This document shows positions 1 to 16,865 of a stretch of DNA of 64,000 bases, in pieces. How positions within the stretch are numbered: the first letter of the stretch is position 1; each line of letters starts with the position of its first letter. The stretch is from Neobacillus sp. FSL H8-0543. GTDB taxonomy: Bacteria > Bacillota > Bacilli > Bacillales > Cytobacillaceae. The notes under the pieces are model-generated. The model had not been told where the DNA came from, made no database searches, and saw nothing but the letters and a program-made list of their open reading frames with translations. A program made the position numbers and the translations under genes. The stretch spans positions 5,158,501 to 5,222,500 of the forward strand of contig NZ_CP151943.1 in the NCBI RefSeq assembly GCF_038592905.1. Direction: 5' to 3'.

Positions 1-993
1 TATAAGAAGGATATTAACCTTGGTGATTACAGTAAAGAAGATTTAATTAAGTTTTATAAAGAAATGGTTAAAATCAGGAAATTCGATGAGAATTTAATCC
101 GTTTAATGCATGAAGGAAAGGTTTCGGGATTCTATCATTCTGGTATTGGTTCAGAGGGTCTATCCGTTGGATCCATCGTTAATAATCTTCGTGACGAGGA
201 TTATATTTTCTACAACCACCGCGGTTGTAACCAAAAGATTGCTAAAGGGGTACCACTTTCAAAAATATATGGTGACTTTTTAGGCACGATAGAAGGAACC
301 ACTAAAGGTCTGGGTGCAGGGATTGTCCATAGTGCTGACCCTTCACGCGGAGTGTTAGGGCAATGTGGAACAATCGGATCTCAGTTTAACATCGTTGTAG
401 GAACCGGTTACTCCACAAAATTACAAAACACTGACCAAGTATCAGTTTGTTATTTCGGTGATGGAGCAGCATCGAGAGAACCCCTCCATGGATCACTGAA
501 TTGGGCAGGTCTATATAAATTACCGGTTATATATATTTGTGAGAATAATGGTTATGCCATTTCTTCTACATTAGAAGAAACTCATTCGGTTAGAGAACAT
601 ATCGCCGACTGGGCATGGGGCTATGGAATTCCAAGCTGTGTGGTCGATGGAAATGACGTTTTATTAATGAATAAGGTCGTTAAGGAAGCGATTGACAGAG
701 CGCAAAGGGGAGAAGGTCCAACCTTTATTGAGGCACAGACTTTCCGTCACAGGGGTCATTTTGAAGGAGACGCCTATGATTATGTTGATAAAGCAGTGAT
801 AAACGATTGGAAAGAAAACAGAGACCCAATTAAAAACTATAAAAAACTATTGCTGGAAAATGAAATTTGTACTGAAAAGGATCTCTTAAGTATTGATGAG
901 CAACTAGACCAGGAAATTCTTGAAGCAATTAAAGTGGCAGAAGAAGCGCCGCTGCCTGATCCAAGCAGAATTTATCAAGGATTATTTGCCTAA
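1..993 (+). CDS. 2-oxoacid dehydrogenase E1 alpha (AcoA-like), 5' partial
   Basis: Thiamine-diphosphate-dependent alpha subunit of a pyruvate/acetoin/branched-chain type 2-oxoacid dehydrogenase E1, which decarboxylates the 2-oxo acid and passes the acyl group to E2. The reading frame is open from base 1, so the gene begins upstream; the first in-frame ATG (64) lies inside the conserved N-terminal region and is not the start. The TPP motif is visible as GDGAAS...ENN, and RHRGHFEGD near the C-terminus resembles AcoA. It is followed after 12 nt by the beta subunit. The true substrate (acetoin, pyruvate or another 2-oxo acid) cannot be told from the sequence. Confidence 0.93.
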   Translation, partial: YKKDINLGDYSKEDLIKFYKEMVKIRKFDENLIRLMHEGKVSGFYHSGIGSEGLSVGSIVNNLRDEDYIFYNHRGCNQKIAKGVPLSKIYGDFLGTIEGTTKGLGAGIVHSADPSRGVLGQCGTIGSQFNIVVGTGYSTKLQNTDQVSVCYFGDGAASREPLHGSLNWAGLYKLPVIYICENNGYAISSTLEETHSVREHIADWAWGYGIPSCVVDGNDVLLMNKVVKEAIDRAQRGEGPTFIEAQTFRHRGHFEGDAYDYVDKAVINDWKENRDPIKNYKKLLLENEICTEKDLLSIDEQLDQEILEAIKVAEEAPLPDPSRIYQGLFA

Positions 994-1005
994 GGAGGGG
1001 TAAGG

Positions 1006-2001
1006 ATGAGTACAAAAGTTAAAGTGAAAACGATTTCAATGCGTGATGCTATTATTGAAGCGTTAACTGAGGAAATGGAACGCGATGAAAAAACCGTTTT
1101 ATTTGGTGAAGACGTTGGTAAGTTCGGCGGCATTAACGCTGTTACAAAAGGTTTATATGATAAATTTGGCGGAAAAAGAGTATTTGATACGCCAATCGCT
1201 GAGACAACCATTGTTGGTGCCGCTTTAGGCATGGCTATTACTGGGTTGAGGCCGATTCCGGAATTACAATTTGGTGATTTTGTTGGGATTGCCTTTGATG
1301 AGGTATTTAACAAACTCGGAAAATGGCGTTATATGCACGGGGGGCAAATGGAGGTCCCTGTCACACTAAGGCTGCCAATTGGGATTGCTGGAGGGGCTGG
1401 TCCTGAGCACTCACAAAGCCCTCAAGCATTATTCATGCATGCCCCCGGAGTGCAAATTGCCATTCCTTCTACGCCATATGATGCTAAGGGCTTATTAAAA
1501 ACAGCCATTCGTGACAATAATGCCGTTCTCTTTTTTGAGCATAAGTTGCTATACGGAATGAAGGGCGAAGTGCCTGAGGAGGAGTACTTAATTCCATTAG
1601 GGAAGGCGGATATTAAACGTGAAGGAAGCGATGTAACAATTATCGCAACTGCACTGCAAGTTCACACTGCCTTAGATGCAGCCAAAACATTAGCAAAAGA
1701 AGGCATCCAAGTCGAAGTAGTCGATCCTCGCACACTTGCGCCTTTAGATAAAGAAACCATCCTTGGCTCCGTGAGAAAAACGGGGAGGGTTTTAATTGTT
1801 CATGAAGAACCAAAAACGGGTGGTTGCGGTGCAGAAATTGCCGCACAAATTTCAGAGGAAGCTTTATTCGACCTCCATGCTCCAATAAGAAGAATAGGAA
1901 GCCCGGATGTTCCAATCGCTCAAAGTATTTATTTAGAGCAATTCTACCGACCTAGTGAAGAACAAATAATCGAGGTAGTTAGGGAATTACTAGAATACTA
2001 A
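1006..2001 (+). CDS. 2-oxoacid dehydrogenase E1 beta (transketolase-like)
   Basis: Beta subunit of the E1 component, 331 aa, full length for AcoB/PdhB-type proteins. The ATG at 1006 follows AGGAGGGG (993-1000). Seen motifs are FGEDVGKFGG near residue 35, the pyrimidine-binding segment FDTPIAE, and a C-terminal transketolase domain ending in the usual QIIEVVRELL helix. It forms the alpha2beta2 E1 with the preceding gene and shares its operon. A hairpin without a T-run separates it from E2. Confidence 0.95.
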   Translation: MSTKVKVKTISMRDAIIEALTEEMERDEKTVLFGEDVGKFGGINAVTKGLYDKFGGKRVFDTPIAETTIVGAALGMAITGLRPIPELQFGDFVGIAFDEVFNKLGKWRYMHGGQMEVPVTLRLPIGIAGGAGPEHSQSPQALFMHAPGVQIAIPSTPYDAKGLLKTAIRDNNAVLFFEHKLLYGMKGEVPEEEYLIPLGKADIKREGSDVTIIATALQVHTALDAAKTLAKEGIQVEVVDPRTLAPLDKETILGSVRKTGRVLIVHEEPKTGGCGAEIAAQISEEALFDLHAPIRRIGSPDVPIAQSIYLEQFYRPSEEQIIEVVRELLEY

Positions 2002-2010
2002 ACAGATAGT

Positions 2011-2037
2011 CCGAATACATCTTAATGGTGTATTCGG
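2011..2037 (+). other. Intercistronic stem-loop between E1 beta and E2
   Basis: Perfect 9-bp inverted repeat CCGAATACA / TGTATTCGG with a 9-nt loop in the 70-nt E1 beta-E2 gap. No T-run follows, so it is not a classical terminator. It may protect or mark an mRNA processing site that sets subunit stoichiometry (inference). Confidence 0.5.
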
Positions 2038-2071
2038 AAGGTTATACATAATGAAGAAGGAGGAGAATTCG

Positions 2072-3235
2072 ATGAATGAAGTAAAAATGCCTAGACTCGG
2101 AGTAACAATGAAAGCTGGGACAGTATCTTCCTGGTTAGTTGAGGAAGGTGATTATGTTGAAAAGGGTGATTATCTGTTTGAATTGGAAACAGAAAAATCA
2201 ACAGTAGAAATCGAAGCAATGGCCTCAGGAGTTTTACGTAAGGTAATCATCCCAGAAGGTGAAGAAGTTTCCGTTAATACGGTCATTGCTATTATTGCCC
2301 AAGAGGATGAGGAGATTGATTTTACTCCATATTTTGAAACAAATCCTATTGAAGTTACAGAGACACAAACAGCGGCAACCGTCGAAGCTGTAGAAGAGAA
2401 ACCAGTAGTAGCGAAGGTTGGCGGAGGTGGCAAAGTTGCGCCAAAGGCACGTCAGTTAGCTAAGCAATTAGGTGTTGTCCTCGAAACTGTAATTGGCACA
2501 GGAAGAGATGGGTTGATTACCGAAAAAGATGTGCAAAATGCGGTTAACCAAAATACATCCATTAGAGTCAAAGAAACCATTAGTTTAAATAATGTAAAGA
2601 AATCGATGTCAGAGAACATGTTGAATAGCTGGAGAAATATTCCTCAGTTTACTCAGATTGTCAGTGTCAACATGGAGAACGTCTTGAAGACAAAGAAAGA
2701 ATTGGAGGGCGTTTCCATAAACGATTTGATTGTTAAGACAGTTGCAAATGTAGTTCAGGAGAATTTAATTGTCAATAGTAGTTTAGAAGACAATAAAATC
2801 CTTGTTTATGAGGATGTCAATATTTCAGTTGCCGTTAACAGCGAACAAGGCTTAGTCGTTCCAGTTATCAAAAACGCAAACAAAAAACTAATTTCTGAAA
2901 TTTCGAGGGAAATCAAAGGTCTCTCAGAAAAGGCTCAAAATAATCAGTTGACGCTAGATGACTATGCACATGGAACAATTACTGTGTCAAATTTAGGGAG
3001 CCTAGGAATTGAAACAGGGACACCAATTATCAATATTCCGCAATCTACCATTATTTTTGCGGGTAGTATTCAAAGGGTTCCAGTCATTAACGAGTACGAC
3101 GAAATTACGATTGCCTCAATGATGAAGCTTTCAATAGCCTATGATCACCGTTTTATCGACGGTGTTACTGCTGCAGGTTTCACAAATGCCTTAAAAGATG
3201 CTCTTGAGAATTTGTCTGTCAATTACCTTTCATAA
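2072..3235 (+). CDS. 2-oxoacid dehydrogenase E2 (dihydrolipoamide acyltransferase)
   Basis: Lipoyl-bearing acyltransferase core of the complex. I chose the ATG at 2072 (387 aa) because GGAGGAG ends about 7 nt before it; the in-frame ATG at 2051 lies upstream of that site. There is one N-terminal lipoyl domain (lipoyl lysine K42 in ETEKS), an acidic linker, a peripheral-subunit-binding domain around residues 122-155 (PKARQLAKQLG), and a C-terminal catalytic domain with the HxxxD motif in YDHRFIDG. No E3 (dihydrolipoamide dehydrogenase) gene follows, so E3 must be upstream or supplied from another locus. Confidence 0.94.
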   Translation: MNEVKMPRLGVTMKAGTVSSWLVEEGDYVEKGDYLFELETEKSTVEIEAMASGVLRKVIIPEGEEVSVNTVIAIIAQEDEEIDFTPYFETNPIEVTETQTAATVEAVEEKPVVAKVGGGGKVAPKARQLAKQLGVVLETVIGTGRDGLITEKDVQNAVNQNTSIRVKETISLNNVKKSMSENMLNSWRNIPQFTQIVSVNMENVLKTKKELEGVSINDLIVKTVANVVQENLIVNSSLEDNKILVYEDVNISVAVNSEQGLVVPVIKNANKKLISEISREIKGLSEKAQNNQLTLDDYAHGTITVSNLGSLGIETGTPIINIPQSTIIFAGSIQRVPVINEYDEITIASMMKLSIAYDHRFIDGVTAAGFTNALKDALENLSVNYLS

Positions 3236-3263
3236 GAGGGCCAGATTGGTTCTCTTCTTTGTC
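3234..3263 (+). terminator. Terminator of the E1/E2 operon
   Basis: AAGAGGGCCA / TGGTTCTCTT stem (two G-U pairs, 3-nt loop) overlapping the E2 stop codon, followed by a T-rich stretch. Moderate strength. Confidence 0.55.
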
Positions 3264-3276
3264 ATTATTTATAAAA

Positions 3277-3452
3277 TGGCTGTGTAATTGTTAGTGTTGA
3301 TTTTTGCGAAATCCGCTTCGCTTTCCGCGGGTTCGCCGGTGAGCCTCCTCGGTCGTTCCTCCCTGTGGGGTCTCACCGTGCTCAAATCTGAGCAGGAGTC
3401 TCGCAGATTTCGCAAAAATCTATTCAAAATAACCTTCTCATTAACACAGCCA
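3277..3452. repeat. Palindromic MITE-like intergenic repeat
   Basis: An element of about 176 bp bounded by inverted termini TGGCTGTGTAA / TTAACACAGCCA, with an inner inverted pair GATTTTTGCGAAATC / GATTTCGCAAAAATC. Its core (GCTTTCCGCGGG ... GAGCCTCCTCGG ... GGGGTCTCACC) is GC-rich against the AT-rich flanks. From memory this core matches a dispersed intergenic repeat common in Bacillaceae genomes. It has no coding capacity of its own; short frames across it are chance. Confidence 0.75.
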
Positions 3453-3488
3453 ATAAAGTTTATTATTATCCAAAAGGAGTGATTTGTT

Positions 3489-4703
3489 GTGTTCAATTTT
3501 ACTGAAAGTGAAGAGCAGAGACGGATGCTTGATGATGCAACTGAAATTATGAAGAAGTATGTGTTTCCAAATGAAAAGTACATGGTCCCACATCGCGGGT
3601 TACCGGGTGAGATATTGAAGCCGTTGCAGCAAATAGTTAAGGAAAAGGGTTTATGGGCAGGCCACTTACCCAAAGAATTTGGCGGTATCGGGATGGGCTT
3701 TGTGTCCTTAGGATTGCTTTCCGAAGTAATTGGCCAGAGTCCAATCGGTCCATATGTTTTTGGTTCGATGGCTCCTGACGCCGGAAATGGTGAAATTTTG
3801 GTCCATGCGGCGAGTGAAGAACAAAAGGAAAAATACTTAAGGCCTCTAGCAAATTATGAAATTCGCTCTTGTTTCGCAATGACTGAGCCTGAAGTTTCTG
3901 GCTCTGACCCAAGAACATTACTCGGGACAGCCGTTCAGGATGGTGATGAATGGGTAATTAATGCTCATAAGTGGTATACGACAGGTGCTGAAGGTGCGGC
4001 TTTTGCTATTGCGATGGTTGTAACCGACCCTGATGCAGAACCTCACCAACGAACAAGTTTGTTTATAGTCGAAACAGATAATCCTGGATTTGAAATCGTC
4101 CGCGAGGTACCTGTCATGGGTGACCATTACCCAGGCGGGCACTGTGAAGTTCGTTTTAATGATTGTCGTATACCAGCAAAAAATTTGCTTGGTAAACGAG
4201 GCGAAGGGTTTAAACTGGCACAATTGCGATTAGGGCCAGGTAGAATCACTCATGCCATGCGTTGGCTCGGTGTTGCTCGCCGCTCATTGAATGAGATGAT
4301 TGTCTATTCGCTAACAAAAAAGGATGGCGAGAAAACTCTTGCTGACTCACAAACCATTCAAAATTATATCGCCGATTCAGAAGCTGAAATTCAAGCCTCC
4401 AGATTGCTGACCCTGCAGGCCGCTTGGAAAATGGATCAGGGAGATCAAGCTCGAAAGGAAGTTTCCCTTATCAAATTTTACGGTGCTCAGATGTTAAACA
4501 ACGTCCTTGATCGTGCCATTCAAACCTTAGGTATGTATGGCGTATCTCAGAATACACCACTTGAGGGTCTGCTTCGGGAAGCAAGGGCAGCACGAATTTA
4601 CGATGGTGCTGATGAAGTGCATCGTATGGTTGTTGCACGTCAAGTCTTGAAGGAGTTCAAATTAAAGGAGAGATTGAATGAGCCAACAGCAGTTCCAAAA
4701 TAA
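3489..4703 (+). CDS. Acyl-CoA dehydrogenase, ACAD10/ACAD11-type
   Basis: Flavin-dependent acyl-CoA dehydrogenase-fold enzyme, 404 aa. The GTG start at 3489 follows AAAGGAGT (3473-3480). It carries AMTEPEVSGSD, HKWYTTGA, RLGPGRITHAMR and YDGADEVH, signatures of the ACAD10/11 branch rather than classical short- or medium-chain enzymes, whose catalytic Glu sits in YEGT; here that position is Asp. Human ACAD11 and Pseudomonas LvaC, of this branch, eliminate phosphate from 4-phosphoacyl-CoA. The 3' end overlaps the following kinase gene by 26 nt, matching the kinase-ACAD fusion of ACAD11 (family knowledge plus inference). Confidence 0.88.
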   Translation: MFNFTESEEQRRMLDDATEIMKKYVFPNEKYMVPHRGLPGEILKPLQQIVKEKGLWAGHLPKEFGGIGMGFVSLGLLSEVIGQSPIGPYVFGSMAPDAGNGEILVHAASEEQKEKYLRPLANYEIRSCFAMTEPEVSGSDPRTLLGTAVQDGDEWVINAHKWYTTGAEGAAFAIAMVVTDPDAEPHQRTSLFIVETDNPGFEIVREVPVMGDHYPGGHCEVRFNDCRIPAKNLLGKRGEGFKLAQLRLGPGRITHAMRWLGVARRSLNEMIVYSLTKKDGEKTLADSQTIQNYIADSEAEIQASRLLTLQAAWKMDQGDQARKEVSLIKFYGAQMLNNVLDRAIQTLGMYGVSQNTPLEGLLREARAARIYDGADEVHRMVVARQVLKEFKLKERLNEPTAVPK

Positions 4704-5730
4704 AATAAATGATATTAACTGGCTAACGGTTGAGGAATATATTCGCGAGCAAATACCTGGGCTGACAGATGATGCACTACAGGTAAAGCCATTTTCTGCA
4801 GGTTACTCAAATTTAACTTACTTTATTTCAATTGGCAATTGGCAAGCGGTTTTAAGGAGACCTCCGTTTGGTCCTATACCACCAAAGGCGCATGACATGA
4901 AAAGAGAATATGAAATATTAGAAAAACTTAATCGTGTATTCCCGCTCGCACCTAAGCCCTATTTTTTCTGCGAGGATCCAAGTGTAATGGACCGGCATTT
5001 CTATGTGATGGAGAAAAAGGAGGGTGTCGTCCTGGATGATTCCCTGCCGATGGAGTTTGAAGATCGGGCAGATACGGGGATTCTAGTTTCAACTGCCGTG
5101 GTCGATACATTAGTCAAATTGCATGCCGTGGATTATAAAGCAGCAGAGTTAACTAGTATCGGCTATCCGGAAGGGTATTTAAGCAGACAGGTAAATGGAT
5201 GGATTAAGCGATTCCATAATGCCAAAACAAACGATATCCCCGGAGTTGAATCACTAGAGAAATGGCTGATTGACAATATCCCACCTTCACAGGCACCAAC
5301 GATTGTTCATAATGATTTCAAGCTGAATAACATGATGTTTTCAGCTACAAATCCAGGAGAGATAATCGGTGTCTTTGATTGGGAATTAAGTACGATTGGT
5401 GATCCCTTAACTGATGTGGCAGCAGCCTTGGCATATTGGACGGAACCAGGGGAAGTAGAATCAGGATTAACCACGGTAACGACAAAACCAGGATTTATTT
5501 CTAGAAAAGAAATGCTGAAAATGTATTCGAAGAAAAGTGGCAGGGATGTAACACATATTGATTACTACCTTACTTTTGCTTTTTACAAAATTGCCGTCAT
5601 TCTCCAGCAAATCTATTATCGCTGGAAAATTGGAGAAGCAACAGATGAACGTTTTAGCAGGTTGGATGTTGGAATCAAGAACCTGCTTGAACAAGCGGGT
5701 AAGGCACAGAGAAAAGAGATTTTAAAATAG
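4678..5730 (+). CDS. APH-type phosphotransferase (ACAD11 kinase-domain/LvaA-like)
   Basis: Aminoglycoside-phosphotransferase-fold kinase, 350 aa, of the subgroup fused to ACAD in ACAD10/11. The Brenner loop HNDFKLNN (H211, D213, N218) and the metal-binding FDWE (D234) are intact, and the N-lobe shows FSAGYSNLTY and a nucleotide-binding VLRRPP segment, so it should be active. Known relatives phosphorylate the 4-hydroxyl of 4-hydroxyacyl-CoA. It overlaps the preceding dehydrogenase gene, implying translational coupling. It is unlikely to be an antibiotic-resistance gene. Confidence 0.86.
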   Translation: MSQQQFQNKINDINWLTVEEYIREQIPGLTDDALQVKPFSAGYSNLTYFISIGNWQAVLRRPPFGPIPPKAHDMKREYEILEKLNRVFPLAPKPYFFCEDPSVMDRHFYVMEKKEGVVLDDSLPMEFEDRADTGILVSTAVVDTLVKLHAVDYKAAELTSIGYPEGYLSRQVNGWIKRFHNAKTNDIPGVESLEKWLIDNIPPSQAPTIVHNDFKLNNMMFSATNPGEIIGVFDWELSTIGDPLTDVAAALAYWTEPGEVESGLTTVTTKPGFISRKEMLKMYSKKSGRDVTHIDYYLTFAFYKIAVILQQIYYRWKIGEATDERFSRLDVGIKNLLEQAGKAQRKEILK

Positions 5731-5751
5731 ATCTCAATTGGAGGGAAAATA

Positions 5752-6897
5752 ATGTCTGAATTATTATTAGACAAAGAACTGCAACTATTAAAAAAGACCG
5801 TACAGTCGTTTATTAAAGAAAGTGTCGCACCAGCAGAATTATCGCCTGGAGAATATGTGAAAAAATTGCCTGAAGAAGTAGTTTCTCGACTGCAAACGGA
5901 AGCAAAGAGTTCGGGACTGCAAGCATTAGGAGCAAAAAAGGAATGGGGCGGTGCCGGCTTATCTGTACTGGCAAGGGCAGTTTTGCTTGAAGAAGCTGCC
6001 CAGCATCGTCTAGGGCTTTACCATCCAGCGGGCGATGCCTTTGGAGGTGAATTTCCTCGTTTCTTAGAAAAATGTTCCAATGAGCAAGTTGAATGGTTGA
6101 TTAAACCCGCTATTACTGAAGGAAAAGGTTGTTTTATTGCTCTGTGGGAGGAACATGAGGATAACTACCTAGAGAATCTGACCGCCACTGCAGTCAAGGA
6201 CGGAAATGAATGGGTACTTAACGGGAAAAAGACATACATCCAAAACCTGGAACAGTCTGCTTTTGGCGCAGTCCTTGTGAATTGTCTGTTAGATAATGGG
6301 GAAAGTCAGCCGACTCTTTTCCTATTAGAGCTGGATGACCAATTAGAAGAACAGGAAACGGTTTTGATTGATGTTCAAACAACACATAGCATTTCATTAA
6401 AAAATTATCGATTGAATGATAGTCAACGTATTGGTGAAGTGGGTGAGGGCGCTGACTTAATTAAGCTGTGGCTGGCAGAAGCACAAATTCTGCTTGCTGC
6501 AAAATCTATTGGGGTAGCTTCTAAAGCCCTTGAGTACGGAAAGCAGTTTGCCAAAATTAGAATTACAAGGGGGCAGCCGCTAGCAGAATTCCCGTCCATT
6601 CGAACCATGCTTGCGAAAGCGGTTATTAATCTTCAGGCCGCGAGATTAATGGTTCAAGATGCTGCAAAAAAAGTAGATTCTCAAATATCTGATTCCGAAC
6701 TTGCTGCGCAAATGGCAAAGCTTCATGCCACGGAAACAGCTGCAAAAATTATCGATGATGTGCTGCAAATCCATGGTGGAACAGGCTATGCTGGCGACCT
6801 GCCAATTGAACGCTGGTTCAAGGAAATACGAATTGCCAGGCTTAACCTGCAAAAAGCTGAAACAATTATTGAAAACGTAGCAGGGTCAATATTATAG
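5752..6897 (+). CDS. Degenerate acyl-CoA dehydrogenase-family protein
   Basis: A 381-aa acyl-CoA dehydrogenase-fold protein directly downstream of the kinase gene (22-nt gap). The three-domain architecture is recognisable (NGKKTYIQN, IHGGTGYAGDLPIERWFKEIR), but the conserved TEPxxGSD flavin/substrate segment is replaced by a WEEHEDNY sequence and the C-terminal Y(E/G)GTNE loop is missing. It may be a non-catalytic partner of the ACAD11-like subunit, as in heteromeric acyl-CoA dehydrogenases of actinobacteria, or act on an unusual substrate (inference). Confidence 0.8.
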   Translation: MSELLLDKELQLLKKTVQSFIKESVAPAELSPGEYVKKLPEEVVSRLQTEAKSSGLQALGAKKEWGGAGLSVLARAVLLEEAAQHRLGLYHPAGDAFGGEFPRFLEKCSNEQVEWLIKPAITEGKGCFIALWEEHEDNYLENLTATAVKDGNEWVLNGKKTYIQNLEQSAFGAVLVNCLLDNGESQPTLFLLELDDQLEEQETVLIDVQTTHSISLKNYRLNDSQRIGEVGEGADLIKLWLAEAQILLAAKSIGVASKALEYGKQFAKIRITRGQPLAEFPSIRTMLAKAVINLQAARLMVQDAAKKVDSQISDSELAAQMAKLHATETAAKIIDDVLQIHGGTGYAGDLPIERWFKEIRIARLNLQKAETIIENVAGSIL

Positions 6898-6959
6898 CAA
6901 GTAAAAGGTTTAGTATAAGTTTTCGCTTAAAAATGGACTCATAGAAAGGGGGCGGTAAA

Positions 6960-8528
6960 ATGCTTGAATTGATGAAATCAAGACAATTGTTAGTAGACCA
7001 AATGCTTACACGTTCAACTAGACGGTTTCCTACTAAAATAGCTTTAGTAAATAAGAATCAACGTGTAACATACAACGACCTTCAAGAGCGTGTCAACAAT
7101 TTAGCAGGCTGGTTCCAAATTAAAGGAATTGCTAAAGGAGACAAGGTAGCTTTATTACTATTCACCCGAATAGAGTATGCAGAATGTTTATTAGCACTAG
7201 CAAGAATCGGTGCAGTTGCAGTGACCATAAACTTTCGTTTACAACCAAATGAAATCGAATATATTTTAAATAATTCCGATGCCAAAATGCTTATTGTAGA
7301 TCACGATCTGACTTCAACAATTGAACCGATTCGTGAAAACCTTCCTTTAATTAGGGATACTATTGTTATTGAAAACAGCTCATCTGATCCTTCTAACTAT
7401 TCCTACAAGAATATATTTTCAAACACATATTATCCAAATTTTGTTGAGTTAGAGGATGATGATGACTTCCTAATTGTTTATACATCAGGTACGACTGGAA
7501 AACCAAAGGGTGCTGTCCTTACACATAAGAATGTTTACTTAAATGCAATGAACTATTCCCTGGAATTTGGACTTACAAAAGATGAAGTCCAGTTAATAAC
7601 CACCCCAATGTTTCATATTGGCGGAATTTCAGCCCTAAGCATGGTGATGTTAATGGGTGGCACGTCTGTTTTACATGAAAAATTTGATCCAGAGAATGTT
7701 TTGCAAACCTATCAATCTGAGAACATTACCTACTCCTTCATGGTCCCTTCGATGTGGAATATGCTGTTAGAGCATCCAAAGTTTTCGGAATATAATCTTA
7801 CAAGCCTTAGAGTTCTTTGTACGGCAGCTGCATCGACACCATTAGAACTGAAGAAACGTCTCATGAAGCATTTTCCGAATGCAGGCGTGTTTGATACTTA
7901 TGGACAGACGGAAACCTCTCCAGGTACGACTACACTAAAGCCAACAGACTCTCTAAATAAGTCTGGATCAGTTGGTTTGTCCTTTACGAATGTAGAGATT
8001 CGTGTCGTGGATGAACAGATGAAAGATGTTCCAAATGGACAGGTCGGCGAAATTATCTTTAGAGGTCCAACCATTATGAAGGAATACTATAAAAACCCAG
8101 AAGCAACTAAGGAGGCCTTTGCAGGCGGATGGCTCCATAGTGGTGATTTGGTTGTAGTCGATGACGATGGGTACATCTCGGTTGTTGACCGTAAGAAGGA
8201 TATGCTTATTAGTGGCGGTGAGAATGTTTATCCAAAAGAAATTGAAGAAATTTTGTATACACACGCGGATATCCTTGAGGCAGCTGTTGTTGGAGTTCCT
8301 GATGAAAAATGGGGAGAAACAGTAAAGGCTTTCGTTGTGATACGGGGTGGGAAAATTTTATCCGAACAAGAAGTGATTGATTATTGTTCTGGAAAAATAG
8401 CAAACTACAAAAAGCCGCGATATGTTGAATTTGTACAGGAATTGCCACGAAATGCTGCTGGGAAAATTCTAAAGACTGTTCTTAGGAAGAATGATTCCAG
8501 GAGTCTCACTAATGAAGTTCAAAGATAA
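6960..8528 (+). CDS. AMP-forming acyl-CoA ligase
   Basis: Activates a carboxylic acid to its CoA thioester via an acyl-adenylate; 522 aa, usual length for the ANL family. Motifs: YTSGTTGKPKG (ATP loop), YGQTETSP, GWLHSGD, DRKKDMLISGGENVYP and the C-terminal catalytic lysine in PRNAAGKILK. The ATG at 6960 follows AAAGGGGGCGG. Its 3' end overlaps the SDR gene. In this cluster it probably loads the substrate acid onto CoA; the chain length it prefers is not predictable. Confidence 0.92.
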   Translation: MLELMKSRQLLVDQMLTRSTRRFPTKIALVNKNQRVTYNDLQERVNNLAGWFQIKGIAKGDKVALLLFTRIEYAECLLALARIGAVAVTINFRLQPNEIEYILNNSDAKMLIVDHDLTSTIEPIRENLPLIRDTIVIENSSSDPSNYSYKNIFSNTYYPNFVELEDDDDFLIVYTSGTTGKPKGAVLTHKNVYLNAMNYSLEFGLTKDEVQLITTPMFHIGGISALSMVMLMGGTSVLHEKFDPENVLQTYQSENITYSFMVPSMWNMLLEHPKFSEYNLTSLRVLCTAAASTPLELKKRLMKHFPNAGVFDTYGQTETSPGTTTLKPTDSLNKSGSVGLSFTNVEIRVVDEQMKDVPNGQVGEIIFRGPTIMKEYYKNPEATKEAFAGGWLHSGDLVVVDDDGYISVVDRKKDMLISGGENVYPKEIEEILYTHADILEAAVVGVPDEKWGETVKAFVVIRGGKILSEQEVIDYCSGKIANYKKPRYVEFVQELPRNAAGKILKTVLRKNDSRSLTNEVQR

Positions 8529-9255
8529 AGTTGCGATTGTCACTGGCGGGGCAAGTGGAATCGGCGAATACACGGTTAGAGAAATGGTGAATGAGGGTGC
8601 AAGGGTAATCATCGCGGACCAAAATGATGCATTAGGAACGGCTCTTGCGCTGGATTTGAATCAAGTAAAACAAACAGTGATTTATACACATGTGGATGTA
8701 ACAAATGAACTTGCGGTTGAACAAATGGTAAATTTAGCTGTTTCAGAATTTGGTAGACTTGATATTTTGTTTAACAATGCTGGGGTTGGAACAGCCTGTC
8801 CGACAACCGATTTATCTCTGGAAGACTGGCGTAAAGTGTTGTCAAATAATTTAGATAGTGTTTTTTTAGCTTCAAAGCATGCAATAAGAATGATGAAAAA
8901 ATATGGCGGTGGAAGCATCGTAAATAATTCTTCCATTTTAGGCCATGTTGGTCAGAAGAATGCAGCGGCTTATTCAGCTTCAAAAGGAGCCGTTATTAAT
9001 CTTACAAAGGCATTAGCTTTAGAGTACGCAATGGAAAATATCAGAGTAAATGCAGTCTGTCCAGGTTATGTCGATACACCATTTATTGCTCATTTTGATG
9101 AAGAAAAGAGAAATTTATTAATTTCCCTACATCCTTTAGGCCGTCTTGGAAAGCCGGAGGAAATTGCAAGGGCTGTTGTTTTCCTGTCATCTGATGATGC
9201 TAGTTTTATAACTGGAACGAGTCTGCTAGTTGACGGCGGATATACTGCTCAATAG
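8512..9255 (+). CDS. Short-chain dehydrogenase/reductase
   Basis: NAD(P)-dependent SDR, 247 aa. The start is set at ATG 8512, which has AGGAG 8 nt upstream; an in-frame ATG at 8491 lies before that site. TGGASGIG (residues 11-18), NNAG (88-91) and the YSASK active site (Y154, K158) are intact, and D36 after the glycine motif suggests NAD preference. It overlaps the ligase gene by 17 nt. In an lva-like scheme it would interconvert a keto- and a hydroxyacyl-CoA (inference); FabG-like activity is the alternative. Confidence 0.9.
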   Translation: MKFKDKVAIVTGGASGIGEYTVREMVNEGARVIIADQNDALGTALALDLNQVKQTVIYTHVDVTNELAVEQMVNLAVSEFGRLDILFNNAGVGTACPTTDLSLEDWRKVLSNNLDSVFLASKHAIRMMKKYGGGSIVNNSSILGHVGQKNAAAYSASKGAVINLTKALALEYAMENIRVNAVCPGYVDTPFIAHFDEEKRNLLISLHPLGRLGKPEEIARAVVFLSSDDASFITGTSLLVDGGYTAQ

Positions 9256-9363
9256 AGGGTTTAAACAAGTTATGGAGAATATTAACTTATTATTCGTATT
9301 GTTCAATAAAAAGAGTTTATCAACTTTTTTATAAAATTTTATACTAATTAGGAGGAATTTAAT

Positions 9364-10515
9364 ATGCGTGAAGTTGTAATTGTTGAAGCCGTTCGTACAC
9401 CAGTAGGAAAAAGAAAAGGGGTATTAAGTACAGTACGTCCAGATGACTTGGCTGCAAAAGTACTTAAGGAATTGGTCAATCGTGCAGGAATTAATTCCGG
9501 ACTGGTTCAAGATGTGATTATGGGTTGTGTTTCTCAGGTTGAAGAACAAGGCTTAAATATTGCTCGTAATGCTGTATTGATGGCAGACTTCCCAATTCAT
9601 GTCCCGGGTACAACTTTAGATCGTCAATGTGGCTCTGGTCAACAAGCGATTCATTTCGCAGCACAAGCCATTATGAGTGGTGATATGGATATCGTCATTG
9701 CCGGCGGTGTTGAAAGCATGTCCCGTGTGCCTTTAGGGGCAACACGTCAAAATTCAGATTGGAGCGAGGAACAGACTTCTCGCTATGAAATGATTCATCA
9801 GGGTTTATCCGCCGAGCGAATTGCAGATCTTTGGGGCTTTACTCGCAGTCAATTAGATGAATTTTCATTTGAAAGTCATAATCGTGCCCTAAAAGCACAA
9901 GAAGAAGGTTATTTTGAAAGAGAAATTATGCCTTTAGAAGTAACACTTGAGGATGGAACAACCGTAACTGTAACACAGGATGAGGGTCCCCGCCGCGGTA
10001 CATCTGTTGAAAAGTTAGGCACACTGAAACCTGCTTTTACTGAAGATGGAAAAATCCATGCAGGAAATGCAAGCCAAATGAGTGATGGTGCTGCAGCCGT
10101 ATTGTTGATGTCTAGAGAAAAGGCAGAGGAATTAGGACTGAAACCACGTTTCCGGATTGTTGCTCGCTCTGTTGTAGGCTCTGACCCAACATTAATGCTA
10201 ACTGGTCCAATTGAAGCAACGAAGCAAGTACTCGCGAAAGCTGGACTTACCATAGAAGATATGGACACCTATGAAGTGAATGAAGCCTTCGCCCCTGTTC
10301 CAATGGCCTGGTTGGAAGAAATTAAGGCGGATCCGAAAAAGCTCAATCCAAATGGCGGAGCAATTGCCCTAGGTCATCCACTAGGAGCAACTGGTGCTCG
10401 TCTAATGATTTCGATGATGCATGAACTTGAAAGAACTGGCGGTCGTTTTGGTCTCCAATCGATTTGTGAAGGTGGCGGTATGGCCAACGGAACAATTATT
10501 GAAAGAATAAATTAA
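9364..10515 (+). CDS. Thiolase (acetyl-CoA acyltransferase)
   Basis: Cleaves 3-ketoacyl-CoA or condenses acetyl-CoA; 383 aa. The nucleophilic cysteine lies in LDRQCGSG (C89), the catalytic His in GGAIALGHPLGATG, and the second Cys in CEGGGMANG. The NEAFAPVPMAW segment differs from the NEAFAAQ of AtoB-type enzymes and points to a degradative acyltransferase branch. AGGAGG precedes the ATG. It is separated from the SDR by 108 nt that may hold its own promoter. Confidence 0.93.
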   Translation: MREVVIVEAVRTPVGKRKGVLSTVRPDDLAAKVLKELVNRAGINSGLVQDVIMGCVSQVEEQGLNIARNAVLMADFPIHVPGTTLDRQCGSGQQAIHFAAQAIMSGDMDIVIAGGVESMSRVPLGATRQNSDWSEEQTSRYEMIHQGLSAERIADLWGFTRSQLDEFSFESHNRALKAQEEGYFEREIMPLEVTLEDGTTVTVTQDEGPRRGTSVEKLGTLKPAFTEDGKIHAGNASQMSDGAAAVLLMSREKAEELGLKPRFRIVARSVVGSDPTLMLTGPIEATKQVLAKAGLTIEDMDTYEVNEAFAPVPMAWLEEIKADPKKLNPNGGAIALGHPLGATGARLMISMMHELERTGGRFGLQSICEGGGMANGTIIERIN

Positions 10516-10530
10516 TTTTTGAGTAAACCC

Positions 10531-10565
10531 GCAGAGTCCTTAATCATATGGTGTTAGGACTCTGC
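10531..10565 (+). terminator. Strong stem-loop after the thiolase gene
   Basis: Perfect GCAGAGTCCT / AGGACTCTGC stem with a 15-nt loop, not followed by a clear T-run. It is either an inefficient terminator or an mRNA-stabilising hairpin between thiolase and the next dehydrogenase. Confidence 0.5.
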
Positions 10566-10603
10566 ACTCTTTCAAGTATTTAACTAATAGGGGTGTGAAG
10601 TAG

Positions 10604-11758
10604 ATGGAAAGACCGTTTATTACGGAAAGTCATGAACTTTTTCGAAAATCACTAAGGAAATATTTAGAAAAAGAAGTTATCCCTAACTTCGAGCAATGGG
10701 AAGCCGACCATCAAGTTCCAAACTCATATTGGAAGCAGTTGGGAGAACTTGGGTTTTTATGCCCATGGTTGGATGAAGAATATGGTGGGATGAATGCCGA
10801 CTTTGGTTACTCTGTCGTACTCGGAGAAGAACTTGAAAAAGTAGGAACAGGGATTAGCGGGCCAGCGATTCATAATGATATAGTCATGCCATACATCGAT
10901 TCTTTTGGATCAGTAGAACAAAAGAGAAAATGGCTACCGAGAAGTATTACAGGTGATATGATTTCTTCCGTTGCGATGACTGAACCAGGAACTGGATCAG
11001 ATTTAGCTGCTATCAAAACAACGGCTGTAAGAGATGGTGACCATTACATAATTAATGGTGAAAAGACGTTTATTTCGAATGGCTATACAACTAATTTTGT
11101 CGTGCTGGTTTGTAAAACCGATCCTTTAGCTCAACCTGCCCATAACGGTATAAGCTTGATTGTTGTAGATGCTATTGATCAAGAAGTTCTAGGATTTCGA
11201 AAAGGTAAAAAGTTAAATAAAGTCGGACAGCATTCTGCTGACACAGCTGAATTAATTTTTGAGGATTGTCGAGTACCTGTTGAAAATTTACTGGGTGAAG
11301 AGGGACGGGGCTTTTACTATTTAATGGAAAAACTGCAACAGGAACGCTTAACCGTTGCTATTGGGGCAATGACCGCGGCGGAGAGAATGTTAGAGATTAC
11401 ATTAGATTACGTAAAACAACGCGAGGCCTTTGGAAAACCAATTAGCAAATTTCAAAATACACAGTTTAAAATAGCCGAAATGGCGACTCAAATCCAAATT
11501 GGTCGGACATTTGTAGACCAATTGATTGTAAAACATATGGCTGAAGAGAATATCGTCACTGAAGTGTCGATGGCGAAATGGTGGACAACGGATATGGCGA
11601 AAAAAGTAGCGACAGAATGCATGCAGCTTCATGGTGGCTATGGTTATATGGAAGAATACGAGATTGCCAGAAGGTTCCGAGATATTCCTATTTCAAGCAT
11701 TTATGCGGGTACAAATGAAATTATGAAGGTCATCATCGCAAAAAATTTGGGACTATAA
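10604..11758 (+). CDS. Acyl-CoA dehydrogenase, long-chain (LCAD)-type
   Basis: First dehydrogenation of beta-oxidation; 384 aa. AMTEPGTGSDLA, NGEKTFISNG, KQREAFGKPI and HGGYGYMEEYEIAR are all present. The C-terminal loop reads YAGTNEIM, so the medium-chain-type Glu is absent, while E247 in QQERL occupies the position used as catalytic base in LCAD/isovaleryl-CoA dehydrogenases. The enzyme therefore looks active and LCAD-like. The start ATG follows GGGGTGTGAAGTAG. Confidence 0.92.
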   Translation: MERPFITESHELFRKSLRKYLEKEVIPNFEQWEADHQVPNSYWKQLGELGFLCPWLDEEYGGMNADFGYSVVLGEELEKVGTGISGPAIHNDIVMPYIDSFGSVEQKRKWLPRSITGDMISSVAMTEPGTGSDLAAIKTTAVRDGDHYIINGEKTFISNGYTTNFVVLVCKTDPLAQPAHNGISLIVVDAIDQEVLGFRKGKKLNKVGQHSADTAELIFEDCRVPVENLLGEEGRGFYYLMEKLQQERLTVAIGAMTAAERMLEITLDYVKQREAFGKPISKFQNTQFKIAEMATQIQIGRTFVDQLIVKHMAEENIVTEVSMAKWWTTDMAKKVATECMQLHGGYGYMEEYEIARRFRDIPISSIYAGTNEIMKVIIAKNLGL

Positions 11759-11846
11759 ATAGCAACTAATCAAAAGGAAAAGCACCGATAAACATTATTT
11801 AGTGCCATTTCCATAAAATTTAGGAAGAATGATGGGAGAGATCATT

Positions 11847-12632
11847 ATGACAAAGCTGGTTCATGTAGAAACAACGGAAGGAATTGCCATTGTTACGATT
11901 GATAATCCACCAATGAATGTTTTAAGTACACAAGTTGTCGCCGAGTTAGGCGATGTGTTTTCTGAGATTGCTAATGATCCAAATGTAATCGTTGCGATTT
12001 TAACGGGTGCAGGCAACCGAGCATTTATGGCGGGAGCTGATATTAAGGAATTCCCTTCCTGGTTAGATATGCAAGCAGAAGACTTGAAAAATATGAATAT
12101 GGAGTCGCATAAAGTATTCAATTTCATTGATAACTTAGCAAAGCCAACGATTGCCGTGTTAAATGGAATCACTTTTGGCGGCGGCTGTGAGCTCGCTTTA
12201 ACGTGTGATATTCGGATAGCAGAGGAGCAAATTAAGATTGGCTTACCAGAGGTGAAATTAGGTCTTTTCCCTGGTGGCGGCGGAACGCAGCGTTTACCAA
12301 GATTAATTGGCCCGTCTAAAGCAAAGGAATTAATGTTTTTGGGTGATCCGATTACTGCCGATGAAGCTCTAACACTAGGTTTAGTCAATCAAGTCGCAGC
12401 GAACGGTGAAGGAATGCAGGCTGCAATTAAAATGGCAGAAAAAATGGCTGGTTATTCTCTGCAAGCATTAAGCAGAATTAAAAAGGCTGTTAATCAAGGA
12501 TTTGATACTTCATTTGATGCCGCAATTGAAATTGAGTCAGGACTTTTTGCTGAGGTATTTGGCACAGAGGATGTAAAAGAAGGGGTTCAAGCCTTTATTG
12601 AAAAGCGTGCGCCTTCCTTCAAGCATCGTTAA
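11847..12632 (+). CDS. Enoyl-CoA hydratase
   Basis: Crotonase hydrating 2-enoyl-CoA to 3-hydroxyacyl-CoA; 261 aa. The ATG at 11847 was chosen because GGGAGAG ends 6 nt upstream; an in-frame ATG at 11829 sits before that site. The oxyanion-hole segment FMAGADIKEF and both catalytic glutamates (GGGCELAL and LPEVKLGLFPGGGG) are present. It is followed by the 3-hydroxyacyl-CoA dehydrogenase in the same direction. Confidence 0.93.
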   Translation: MTKLVHVETTEGIAIVTIDNPPMNVLSTQVVAELGDVFSEIANDPNVIVAILTGAGNRAFMAGADIKEFPSWLDMQAEDLKNMNMESHKVFNFIDNLAKPTIAVLNGITFGGGCELALTCDIRIAEEQIKIGLPEVKLGLFPGGGGTQRLPRLIGPSKAKELMFLGDPITADEALTLGLVNQVAANGEGMQAAIKMAEKMAGYSLQALSRIKKAVNQGFDTSFDAAIEIESGLFAEVFGTEDVKEGVQAFIEKRAPSFKHR

Positions 12633-12663
12633 AAAATTTATCTATAAACGGAGGAATGTAACG

Positions 12664-13527
12664 TTGACAGAAATTAAACAAATAACAGTAGTTGGATCTG
12701 GTGTAATGGGTTCGCAAATTGCAATGGTTTCGGCCTTAGCGGGATTCGATGTATATTTACAGGATATTAATGAAGAAAGTCTTAAAGTAGCAGAAGATTC
12801 CTTGCATGGCCATATTAATAAAAGAATCTCTAAAGGCAAAATATCACTCCTAGAAGCAGAGAAAGCATTTGCTAGACTGAAATTTGTCACTTCATTGGAA
12901 AAGGCAGTTGCAGAAACTGATTTCGTGATTGAAGCAATCGTTGAAAAACTCGATGTAAAGCGTCAGTTATTTGCAGAAATAGATAGGTTAGCACCCTCAC
13001 ATGCAATCATTGCTACTAATAGTTCGACGATTGTCAGTTCTAAGCTGGCTGATGCAACAAATCGTCCGGAAAAAATATGTAATCTCCATTTCTTTAATCC
13101 AGTATTGGTTATGGAATTGGTAGAAGTGGTAAAGGGCCCTCAAACCTCTGATGAAACAGCAGACACGGCTGTAGAACTTGTCAAACAAATAAACAAGACT
13201 CCAATTCTCTTGAAAAAGGAAATCTCCGGTTTTGTTGCCAATAGAATACTAGGCGCGTTAATCGATGAAGCCATTTATCTATTAGAAAATGATATCGCAA
13301 CAGTAGAGGAGATTGATCTTGCCTGTACAAAAGCGCTTAATCATCCGATTGGACCATTTGCACTCTTGGATTTAACAGGGATTGATGTCAATTATTATAT
13401 CCGCCAGGTACTATATGAAGAAACTGGCGATGAAAACCAAAAACCGCAAAAAGTGATAACTGAAAAATACTTAAACGGAGAATATGGTCGCAAAACAGGC
13501 AAGGGTTTTTACAGCTATAACTCTTAA
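12664..13527 (+). CDS. 3-hydroxyacyl-CoA dehydrogenase (Hbd-like)
   Basis: NAD-dependent oxidation of 3-hydroxyacyl-CoA, 287 aa, the size of single-function 3-hydroxybutyryl-CoA dehydrogenases. A TTG start at 12664 is preferred because GGAGG (12650-12654) lies 9 nt upstream and the Rossmann motif VVGSGVMGSQ begins at once; an upstream in-frame ATG would overlap the hydratase gene. NSSTI, HFFNP and the C-terminal PFALLDLTGID segment are present. Confidence 0.93.
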   Translation: MTEIKQITVVGSGVMGSQIAMVSALAGFDVYLQDINEESLKVAEDSLHGHINKRISKGKISLLEAEKAFARLKFVTSLEKAVAETDFVIEAIVEKLDVKRQLFAEIDRLAPSHAIIATNSSTIVSSKLADATNRPEKICNLHFFNPVLVMELVEVVKGPQTSDETADTAVELVKQINKTPILLKKEISGFVANRILGALIDEAIYLLENDIATVEEIDLACTKALNHPIGPFALLDLTGIDVNYYIRQVLYEETGDENQKPQKVITEKYLNGEYGRKTGKGFYSYNS

Positions 13528-13594: not shown

Positions 13595-14533
13595 TTGTTA
13601 AGTGAAATAGGTGTAACACAAGTAACAATCCCATTGCCCTTCCGCTTAAATCATGTGAATTGTTTTTTAGCAGAAGGTGCAAGTGGGTGGACAATTATTG
13701 ATGCAGGATTAAATACAGAAGTATCAAGAAATAGTTGGCAGCCACTTATTGCAAAACATGATATAAAGGATATTATTCTAACCCATTACCATCCCGACCA
13801 TTTCGGCTATGCGGGAAAACTGCAGCAGTTAACAAATGCAGAAGTTTGGATGACGGAAGTGGATGCTCACAATGGCCTAACTTACTGGGAACCCGACTCG
13901 TTGGAGGAAGTAGATAGAAATTATCATATGTGCGGCCTCCCAGGTCATTTATCCGCCAAGTTAACAACGGACGAAGAGAGTTTTAATGCCCAGGTAAAAC
14001 CTTATCCACAAGTGAATCATTACCTAGAAGAAGGTATGAAAATCTTATTTGGGAAATTTGAATACGAGGTAATATTTACTCCAGGGCATTCTGATGGATT
14101 AATCACTCTGTATAACAAAGAAAATAACATTCTTTTTTCAACGGACCATATTTTACCGAGAATCTCACCGAATATTTCGTATTGGTTTCGAGGTATCCGA
14201 AATCCATTACAAGCCTTCTTTATGAGTCTGGAAAAAATTAAACAGCTAGGTGTTGATTATGTTATCCCATCACATGGCACACCATTTAGAAATGCAAATC
14301 ATAGAATTGAAGAGTTATTGCTGCACCATCAGGAACGTTTAGAGGAAGTGTATGGTTATCTTATAAAACCCTCCACTATTTATGAAGTAAATAGTAAGCT
14401 GTTTAAAAAATTGACCATTCACGAGACCAGGTTTGCTATTGGTGAAACTCTTGCCCATCTGGAATTCCTCTATTTGAATAATCAATGTAAAAAGGAATTA
14501 ATAAATGGTACCTGGTTTTATGAGGCAATATAG
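13595..14533 (+). CDS. MBL-fold metallohydrolase
   Basis: Zinc metallo-beta-lactamase-fold hydrolase, 312 aa, TTG start at 13595 after AGGAAGGAG. Metal ligands are complete: THYHPDHFG (HxHxDH), TPGHSDG, STDH and PSHG. No signal peptide, so cytoplasmic. Lying between beta-oxidation genes and 11 nt before a crotonase gene, it could act as a thioesterase or lactonase in this pathway (inference); the exact substrate cannot be read from the sequence. Confidence 0.87.
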   Translation: MLSEIGVTQVTIPLPFRLNHVNCFLAEGASGWTIIDAGLNTEVSRNSWQPLIAKHDIKDIILTHYHPDHFGYAGKLQQLTNAEVWMTEVDAHNGLTYWEPDSLEEVDRNYHMCGLPGHLSAKLTTDEESFNAQVKPYPQVNHYLEEGMKILFGKFEYEVIFTPGHSDGLITLYNKENNILFSTDHILPRISPNISYWFRGIRNPLQAFFMSLEKIKQLGVDYVIPSHGTPFRNANHRIEELLLHHQERLEEVYGYLIKPSTIYEVNSKLFKKLTIHETRFAIGETLAHLEFLYLNNQCKKELINGTWFYEAI

Positions 14534-14544
14534 GAGGTGGTTGT

Positions 14545-15375
14545 ATGTCAGACAATTTCCTTTGTCACATTGAAAACAATATCTTGATGATTACTCTTAA
14601 CCGCCCAGATCGATTAAATGCGCTTACAGAACAGGCGATAAACGAATTTATTGGTATTCTTGATCGAGCGGATCAAGATGATGAAGTGAAGGCAATTATT
14701 GTTACAGGAACTGGTAGGGGATTTTGTGCAGGTGCAGACCTTGAAAAGGGCGGGGATACCTTTGCCGACAATGAAACACCTGAAGAGGATTATCGGGATA
14801 GTGGCGGGCGAATAAGTCTACGAATCTATGAGATGAAAAAGCCAATGATTGCTGCGATCAATGGTCCTGCAGTTGGTGTAGGAATTACAATGACACTGCC
14901 AATGGATATCCGCATTGCCTCAACGAATGCAAAAATGGGTTTTGTTTTTACCCGACGAGGGATTGCTCCTGAAGCCTGCAGCGGCTGGTTTTTGCCGCGT
15001 GTCGTTGGGATAAGTAAAGCGGCTGAATGGACGTTAACCGGCCGGATTTTATCTGCTCAAGAAGCATTGAATGGCGGTTTGGTGAGTCAAGTGGTTTCTC
15101 CGGAGGATCTATTGCCTGCCGCACTATCGATTGCTGCAGAGATTGTCGAAAATACCTCTAGTATCTCAGTAGCCCTTACAAGACAATTGATGTGGCGGAT
15201 GCTTGGTGCTGATCATCCAATCGAGTCTCATAAGGTTGAATCAAAGATGATTCAGTGGCTGGGTGGTCAGAATGATGCAAAAGAAGGAGTATCTTCCTTT
15301 TTAGAAAAAAGACCAGCGAACTTCACCATGAAGACAAGTTCTGATATGCCGCCTTTCTACCCCTGGTGGAAGTAG
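14545..15375 (+). CDS. Enoyl-CoA hydratase/isomerase family protein
   Basis: Second crotonase, 276 aa, start after AGGAGGTGG. FCAGADLE supplies the oxyanion hole, but the first catalytic Glu of classical hydratases is replaced (GVGITMTL where GGGCEL is usual), while a Glu is kept in the RGIAPEACSGWFLP segment. This fits a subgroup with isomerase or unknown activity rather than a standard hydratase. Last gene of the acyl-CoA cluster. Confidence 0.88.
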   Translation: MSDNFLCHIENNILMITLNRPDRLNALTEQAINEFIGILDRADQDDEVKAIIVTGTGRGFCAGADLEKGGDTFADNETPEEDYRDSGGRISLRIYEMKKPMIAAINGPAVGVGITMTLPMDIRIASTNAKMGFVFTRRGIAPEACSGWFLPRVVGISKAAEWTLTGRILSAQEALNGGLVSQVVSPEDLLPAALSIAAEIVENTSSISVALTRQLMWRMLGADHPIESHKVESKMIQWLGGQNDAKEGVSSFLEKRPANFTMKTSSDMPPFYPWWK

Positions 15376-15535
15376 TAATGCTTGCAAAAATAGATAAAAC
15401 AAACAATGGGGTGCCTTTCGATAGGACACCCTGCTTTAGGTTCAAGAGTCTAACATATTCCATGATTTTAATAAATATCTTGTAATAATATCCCTATGAA
15501 TTTTGCGAGTTTTAGATAAATAGGAGGTGGTTTGC

Positions 15536-16864: not shown

Positions 16865-16865
16865 A

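Follow-up and report, generated by a model that had tools for sequence, protein, structure and literature searches.

The window analysed here, a stretch of 64,000 nucleotides from Neobacillus sp. FSL H8-0543, contains an acyl-CoA dehydrogenase (ACAD) gene overlapping a gene of an APH-type kinase, which raises the question of which neighbouring genes form a unit with this pair and what reaction the unit would serve. The field question behind it is what the flavin does in an elimination with no net redox change. It was not until 2024-2025 that the kinase plus ACAD route for 4-hydroxy acids was attributed to mammalian enzymes (PMC11342911 and PMC12440821, in the parts used here). The original prediction took the pair, together with the following acyl-CoA ligase and SDR, for the activity set of the Pseudomonas lva pathway. 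Our analysis supports the lva-like reading of the locus in kind, but corrects the unit to three genes instead of two. The genes of the cluster are as follows.

64-3235: 2-oxoacid dehydrogenase of the same cluster.
3489..4703, plus strand: ACADk (alpha), ACAD10/11/LvaC-like acyl-CoA dehydrogenase, 404 aa (from the ORF, alignments and tree).
4678..5730, plus strand: KIN, kinase of the APH type (350 aa) and candidate 4-hydroxyacyl-CoA kinase (from the ORF and alignment).
5752..6897, plus strand: ACADd (beta), an acyl-CoA dehydrogenase of 381 aa, catalytically dead and predicted to be the partner that lends ACADk part of its flavin site.
6960..8528, plus strand: AMP-forming acyl-CoA ligase, possible acid activator, a lineage-specific neighbour.
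8491..9255, plus strand: SDR dehydrogenase, possibly a 4-oxo/4-hydroxyacyl reductase, a lineage-specific neighbour.
9364..13527, plus strand: beta-oxidation set (thiolase, conventional ACAD, enoyl-CoA hydratase, 3-hydroxyacyl-CoA dehydrogenase).
13595..15375, plus strand: MBL-fold hydrolase (speculatively, a lactonase) and a second enoyl-CoA hydratase.
15527-19674: glycolate-oxidase-like set of the same cluster (assigned by eye).

The ACADk and KIN genes are both intact and overlap by 26 bases, as predicted; the identical overlap is seen in 9 of the 18 ACADd-bearing rows (the window included). The gap between KIN and ACADd is 21 bases, with no room there for LvaB (12 kDa). The ligase and SDR genes are present and intact, but a complete ACAD gene, ACADd, missed in the original prediction, precedes the ligase. 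The beta-oxidation genes do lie downstream. An Rfam scan of positions 1-22000 at gathering thresholds gave no match, and promoter and terminator counts in 3000-9500 are close to the shuffled means. Other kinase/ACAD sets lie elsewhere in this genome, at 4.91 Mb (L010), 0.33 Mb (L011) and 5.14-5.15 Mb (L009), so the window does not have the sole one.

The assignment of ACADk to the ACAD10/11 branch had cited the motifs RLGPGRI and YDGADEVH, both of which are found in the protein. In the 37-row ACAD tree, which was built without LvaC itself, one branch (100/100) unites ACADk with ACAD11 and the bacterial relatives of ACAD11, to the exclusion of conventional ACADs. Within this branch, however, ACADk forms a sister clade to the group of ACAD11, the solved 4hr3 and L009-L011, and thus stands outside the ACAD11 clade proper, while the ACADs of L010 and L011 from the same genome fall inside it.

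The best solved relative of ACADk is ACAD11 (E 6.4e-71), and alignment with it recovers the catalytic and phosphate-binding residues in both the dehydrogenase and the kinase. In particular, ACADk R247, R252, H255, R258 and D372 align with R626, R631, H634, R637 and D753 of mouse ACAD11; D372, within RIYDGADEVH, corresponds to the aspartate catalytic base, and R247, H255 and R258 to the phosphate pocket. According to the part of PMC12440821 used here, mutation of the matching residues stops ACAD11, and the phosphate-binding ones are absent from conventional ACADs. The agreement is not complete: alanine replaces the cysteine of HCMR (HAMR in ACADk, with alanine also in 4hr3). ACAD11 R86, by position count, does not coincide with the aligned Arg and is left out of the comparison. 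KIN matches the kinase domain of ACAD11 (E 4.2e-51) and, better, the PDB entry 9o56, 'Aminoglycoside phosphotransferase' (E 5.2e-115); no paper naming 9o56 was found in open-licence PMC literature. KIN D213, N218 and R170 align with ACAD11 D220, N225 and R176 (numbering counted from the alignment).

An APH-class kinase, an ACAD with the Asp base and the R/H/R phosphate pocket, and a link to beta-oxidation genes are common to the window, ACAD10/ACAD11 and Pseudomonas putida LvaA/LvaC, and the position of the kinase gene beside the ACAD gene is shared with the levulinate operon (lva) of P. putida. The window differs from these systems in the sister-clade position of ACADk, in HAMR instead of HCMR, in the loss of the flavin-lending half from ACADk and in the adjoining inactive second ACAD; LvaB was not seen in the window.

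The lending half comprises the motifs RxTRG and QxxGGxG, whose residues are predicted, by analogy with medium-chain ACAD (MCAD) structures, to touch the FAD of the dimer mate. Both are kept in 70/70 ACADd rows (65 distinct), with R270, T272, Q339, G342, G343 and G345 invariant, and both have decayed in ACADk. There the first, RxTRG in relatives, reads KKDGE at 277-281, and the protein's own FAD half is intact. A sliding scan over the whole of ACADk (11 residues, 393 scan windows) placed the greatest conservation loss of the motif-lost clade at this motif (scan windows starting at 271-272), followed by a peak at 352-355 adjacent to the second lending motif. These features argue against ACADk forming a homotetramer in which each subunit has its own FAD. 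ACADd, in turn, is missing its catalytic acid, its substrate arginine and the flavin-binding half of its own: the substrate Arg occurs in 0/70 rows, the GSD glycine in one (L106), and an acidic base in one (P0055, with Glu in this position). Outside the ACADd family the catalytic base is present in 60/60 relatives, and the Phe of the classical RxTFG in 59/60, whereas all ACADd rows and motif-intact ACADk have Arg here.

The loss of catalytic residues, along with the frame of ACADd in L107 being split in two (203 + 166 aa, so that beta may be non-functional in this one genome), could mean that ACADd is a decaying pseudogene copy retained by chance. This is highly improbable in view of the invariant lending half, the 17 open frames among the 18 ACADd-bearing loci, and a dN/dS of about 0.1 (0.096 against L042, 0.124 against L043), by which ACADd is under purifying selection. 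Its AlphaFold model (pLDDT 89) has the full ACAD fold; structure comparison of the model returned the general ACAD fold, with no known beta subunit recognised among the 50 entries and the 50 rows listed.

The two ACADs are also associated across relatives. The lending motif, scored as lost or intact by two of its own columns, is lost in 16 of the 45 distinct ACADk relatives, and ACADd lies downstream in all 16. The remaining 29 have the motif intact, and ACADd accompanies two of them (L052 and L054), is missing in 25 and cannot be judged in two (hence 2/27 judgeable). The 16 cases are not independent trials, because the tree traces the loss to a single event (one branch, 95/97; L120 and L122, whose contigs end just downstream, were left out). 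In named genomes, ACADk is directly upstream in 14/14 loci with ACADd of at least 48% identity; another 10 of the 24 loci found (L056-L065, at 23-31% identity) were excluded from the ACADd count. Among database proteins, 20/66 motif-lost ACADk share a same-size longest contig with ACADd, against 1/54 motif-intact ones, a crude pairing that is supportive and not relied on (P0208, which differs only by Gly to Ala, was counted as motif-lost).

A plain Gram-positive lva-like pathway, where KIN and a homotetrameric ACADk suffice, with ACADd as a passenger of unrelated or regulatory function, would agree with the homotetrameric state of ACAD11, described in part of PMC12440821 as having one FAD per subunit, with the absence of ACADd from 25 of the 27 judgeable motif-intact loci, and with L052 and L054, which retain the motif despite ACADd. 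Nevertheless, we find it unlikely, as ACADk of the window has lost a motif still present in each of the 25 judgeable relatives that have no ACADd, every ACADd row retains the lending half, and the two ACAD genes remain adjacent without an intervening kinase in L051, L106 and L107.

A similar division is known from the alpha2beta2 ACADs of steroid catabolism, ChsE4-ChsE5 / FadE26-FadE27, ChsE1-ChsE2 / FadE28-FadE29 and IpdE1-IpdE2. The alpha subunit of ChsE4-ChsE5 accommodates the flavin ring and provides Glu, with ADP-ribose contacted by the beta subunit; ChsE beta is without the catalytic acid and contains the ADP half of the site (PMC11153573, in the part used here). ACADd likewise has no catalytic acid and is predicted to supply that half. 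The window, too, has two adjacent ACAD genes with the substrate site and catalytic acid in one only (for the acid, P0055 is the exception, 1/70 ACADd). It differs in belonging to Bacilli, in the linked kinase and in an alpha of the ACAD10/11/LvaC type, and its complex is a predicted one. No alpha2beta2 dehydrogenase of this type was found described in open-licence PMC literature, preprints excluded.

The alpha2beta2 ACADs found in print serve steroid or bile-acid catabolism (PMC11153573, PMC6678751, as far as the parts used here go), and ACADk-ACADd might by analogy be an ordinary redox dehydrogenase whose substrate is bulky, as those of steroid side-chain oxidation are, with the kinase acting on something else. 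The three loci without a kinase between the ACAD genes would fit this, and so would the 2-oxoacid dehydrogenase and glycolate-oxidase-like set, neither of which would be needed for 4-hydroxy acids alone. We consider it distinctly unlikely: the phosphate-binding R247, H255 and R258, which conventional ACADs lack (PMC12440821, in part), are kept in 16/16 motif-lost ACADk, KIN adjoins in 15/18 ACADd-bearing rows, and G205 and G231, related genomes with no adjacent kinase, carry a KIN of 66% identity elsewhere. Judging by the kinase-less loci, the dehydrogenase pair may be able to function with no adjoining kinase. Moreover, the tie to ACADd looks looser for the kinase than for ACADk, because ACADd-bearing loci require four changes in the kinase tree (several forks of which are open, the ACAD11 kinase branch being too long to place).

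We therefore favour, as reasonably probable, a 4-hydroxyacyl-CoA kinase and a heteromeric (alpha2beta2) phosphate-eliminating dehydrogenase, a three-gene cassette that would bring 4-hydroxyacyl-CoA into beta-oxidation. KIN, judging by its conserved residues, would phosphorylate the 4-hydroxyl, and ACADk2-ACADd2 would remove the phosphate to give 2-enoyl-CoA, with ACADk providing the aspartate base, phosphate-binding R/H/R and flavin-ring site, and the inactive ACADd reaching across the dimer interface to provide the ADP-binding portion of the flavin site. The downstream hydratase, dehydrogenase and thiolase would finish the chain; levulinate is a putative substrate. In evolutionary terms, derivation of ACADd by duplication of ACADk is unsupported by the 37-row tree. 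It is moderately probable that in these Bacilli an obligate alpha2beta2 enzyme performs the phosphate elimination of ACAD10/11/LvaC, that a pseudo-ACAD of a different ACAD lineage took over half of the flavin site, and that the alpha motif decayed after this recruitment, with L052 and L054 representing the stage before.

If so, the motif-intact L052 and L054 would be intermediates for an enzyme coming to depend on a dead relative, and the alpha2beta2 ACAD design would extend outside steroid catabolism. With the kinase and the two ACAD subunits separable from one another, each half-site could be purified, titrated and mutated alone. ACADd is the most informative gene of the set.

The predicted lva-like activity set stands as regards the residues and the existence of lva-like relatives in Bacilli, but not as regards the ligase and SDR, which were rejected as core members: a ligase of the window type is downstream in 4/14 ACADd loci and such an SDR in 1/14. 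The conserved unit, by comparison of loci, is ACADk-kinase-ACADd, with the ligase and SDR varying. Nor was a sigma-54 activator, expected of an lva operon, or a phosphatase gene found in the window at distances of up to 6 kb from ACADk. An LvaR-like sigma-54 activator is located upstream on the other strand in 14/45 ACADk rows (identified as sigma-54/PAS by Pfam in L052 and elsewhere by BLAST to the L052 protein).

Relatives from other Bacilli (L100-L105, L108, L119, L121, L123, L124) share the ACADk-KIN pair with the window, and add the divergent sigma-54/PAS-type activator, the ligase, the SDR and, in several, a phosphatase gene. The lva cluster of P. citronellolis, which lacks lvaB according to the part of PMC6692424 used here, resembles them. 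Unlike the window, these Bacilli loci have intact RxTRG and no ACADd. As for the distal genes, kin of both the MBL-fold hydrolase and the second enoyl-CoA hydratase lie beside scattered cassette parts in another genome.

The locus lies in a genome consisting of a single 5.3-Mb contig and is organized as follows (window positions).

64-3235: 2-oxoacid dehydrogenase set
3489-4703: ACADk, the ACAD10/11/LvaC-like acyl-CoA dehydrogenase (ACAD), after this set
4678-5730: KIN, the APH-type kinase, after ACADk
5752-6897: ACADd, the catalytically dead ACAD, between KIN and the ligase
6960-8528: ligase, after ACADd
8491-9255: SDR, after the ligase
downstream of the SDR, in this order: thiolase, ACAD, hydratase, 3-hydroxyacyl-CoA dehydrogenase
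13595-14533: MBL hydrolase, after the 3-hydroxyacyl-CoA dehydrogenase
14545-15375: second hydratase, after the MBL hydrolase
downstream of the second hydratase: set of glycolate-oxidase-like look, judged by eye

All genes named in the original prediction of an lva-like 4-hydroxy-acid pathway are present and intact, but ACADd was missing from its list. The closest named relative of ACADd, its own protein aside, is from Neobacillus drentensis (88%).

The solved protein nearest to ACADk is ACAD11 (E 6.4e-71), whose phosphate pocket and base comprise R626, H634, R637 and D753, R631 being conserved across ACADs (available text of PMC12440821). These positions align with R247, H255, R258, D372 and R252 of ACADk, respectively, while D213, N218 and R170 of KIN stand opposite ACAD11 D220, N225 and R176 (numbering counted from the alignment); the alignment with ACAD11, proposed earlier as a check, gave matches in both proteins. 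The HCMR cysteine is replaced by alanine in ACADk, as in the solved 4hr3; among 45 ACADk rows, HCMR is found in paralogues L009-L011 only. In a 37-row tree, built without LvaC, the ACADk clade, ACAD11, 4hr3 and three more ACADs of this genome form a single branch (100/100). The predicted ACAD10/11-branch membership holds at this level, but ACADk itself falls in a sister clade (99/98), L010 and L011 being the ones grouped with ACAD11. LvaC is 62% identical to ACAD10 and 56% to ACAD11 (PMC11342911, available text).

Neighbourhoods of ACADk were taken from 14 named loci (of 24, cut-off at least 48% identity), 30 further Bacilli stretches, six of the genus and this genome, the 54 copies reducing to 45 distinct ones. 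RxTRG, a motif of the flavin-site half presumed to be lent to the dimer mate, was scored as lost if Arg or Gly was missing. It is lost in 16 of 45 ACADk, and all 16 have ACADd at most 5 kb downstream. Of the 29 intact ones, 25 (including the distant paralogues L009-L011) have no ACADd, two (L120, L122) are not judgeable, as their contigs end 266 or 384 bases downstream, and two have it (L052, Aneurinibacillus terranovensis; L054, Ammoniphilus resinae).

Comparison of the 16 motif-lost and 26 intact clade members in 393 sliding windows places the greatest loss of conservation at ACADk residues 271-282 and the second at 352-365, the catalytic stretch being fully conserved in the motif-lost clade. 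T279 drops from 26/26 to 1/16 and R280 from 26/26 to 0/16, neither having been used to define the groups. Motif-lost ACADk form one branch in a 43-row tree (95/97; 96% of 200 bootstrap trees), and therefore the loss is a single historical event. ACADd would have arrived before it, provided that L052 and L054 are early branches.

The sequences give good grounds for predicting an ACADk-ACADd heteromer on the ChsE4-ChsE5 design (PMC11153573 and PMC6678751, available text). KIN would form a 4-phosphoacyl-CoA, and ACADk-ACADd would remove the phosphate with transient flavin reduction, as proposed for ACAD10 (PMC11342911); the hydratase, then later enzymes, would process the product. The pairing of kinase and ACAD is ordinary in kind; the architecture is unusual.

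ACADk is immediately upstream of ACADd in all 14 named ACADd loci, with KIN between them in 13; the exception is L051 from Mesobacillus persicus, whose genome has one KIN relative (46%). In two loci of one other genus (L107, L106; genomes G205, G231) ACADk also adjoins ACADd with no KIN between, the L107 ACADd frame being split in two pieces; both genomes encode a 66% identical KIN elsewhere, beside a relative of hydratase 14545-15375. The window-type ligase is downstream in 4/14 loci, the SDR in 1/14, and a 2-oxoacid dehydrogenase upstream in 3/14. ACADk occurs in 9/61 genomes of the genus (E <= 1e-140), and in 15/397 order-sample and 13/398 class-sample genomes (E <= 1e-150; these samples overlap, the window's own genome counted in). 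One MAG contig (DULJ01000048.1; L048, L053) carries the ACADk-KIN-ACADd cassette twice, with about 52 kb separating the copies, whose ACADd are 63% and 50% identical to that of the window. Four database ACADs, P0057-P0060, are 34-36% identical to ACADd and may be older beta subunits; P0057 likewise lacks the base and substrate Arg, and the tree makes P0057/P0058 the sister group of ACADd.

In 11 ACADd-less loci, a sigma-54/PAS-type activator (assigned by Pfam in L052, elsewhere by BLAST to it), ligase and SDR face ACADk-KIN from the opposite strand; the activator is upstream on the opposite strand in 14/45 ACADk rows. A gene resembling 2-phosphosulfolactate phosphatase, assigned to PF04029 by Pfam in L052 and L048, lies within 6 kb in 11/45 rows, one weak (L127). 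It adjoins the kinase in several Bacilli (L052:11181-11939, L116, L100, L103, L105, others) and, judged by eye, in L146:2583-3344. ACAD10 bears an HAD domain. The kinase-phosphatase pairing may control the phospho-intermediate. The ACADd-less loci resemble the P. citronellolis set, for which the available text of PMC6692424 gives an LvaR homologue, ligase, kinase, ACAD and SDR, no lvaB, and a histidine phosphatase-family gene adjoining the kinase. Of all the findings, this resemblance speaks most strongly for an lva-like pathway, but it does so at clade level.

The MBL hydrolase is closest to 2zo4, uncharacterised-looking (E 3.2e-44), and also resembles 8zxg, 'Paraoxonase from Bacillus' (E 7.6e-23); speculatively, it might open gamma-lactones to 4-hydroxy acids. 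A 52% relative lies near ACADk/ACADd in L107.

The intergenic segment 3297-3428, between E2 and ACADk, is an element with inverted ends, matched at at least 40 places in the same genome, itself counted (40 of 107 candidates scored), and is a member of a dispersed repeat family. Upstream of the window, L009:134-14528 (about 5.139-5.153 Mb) holds a further ligase-kinase set with transporter-like genes alongside, its kinase being 25% identical to KIN and its 406-aa ACAD of HCMR type; from this set through to the window, the region looks like one large catabolic region.
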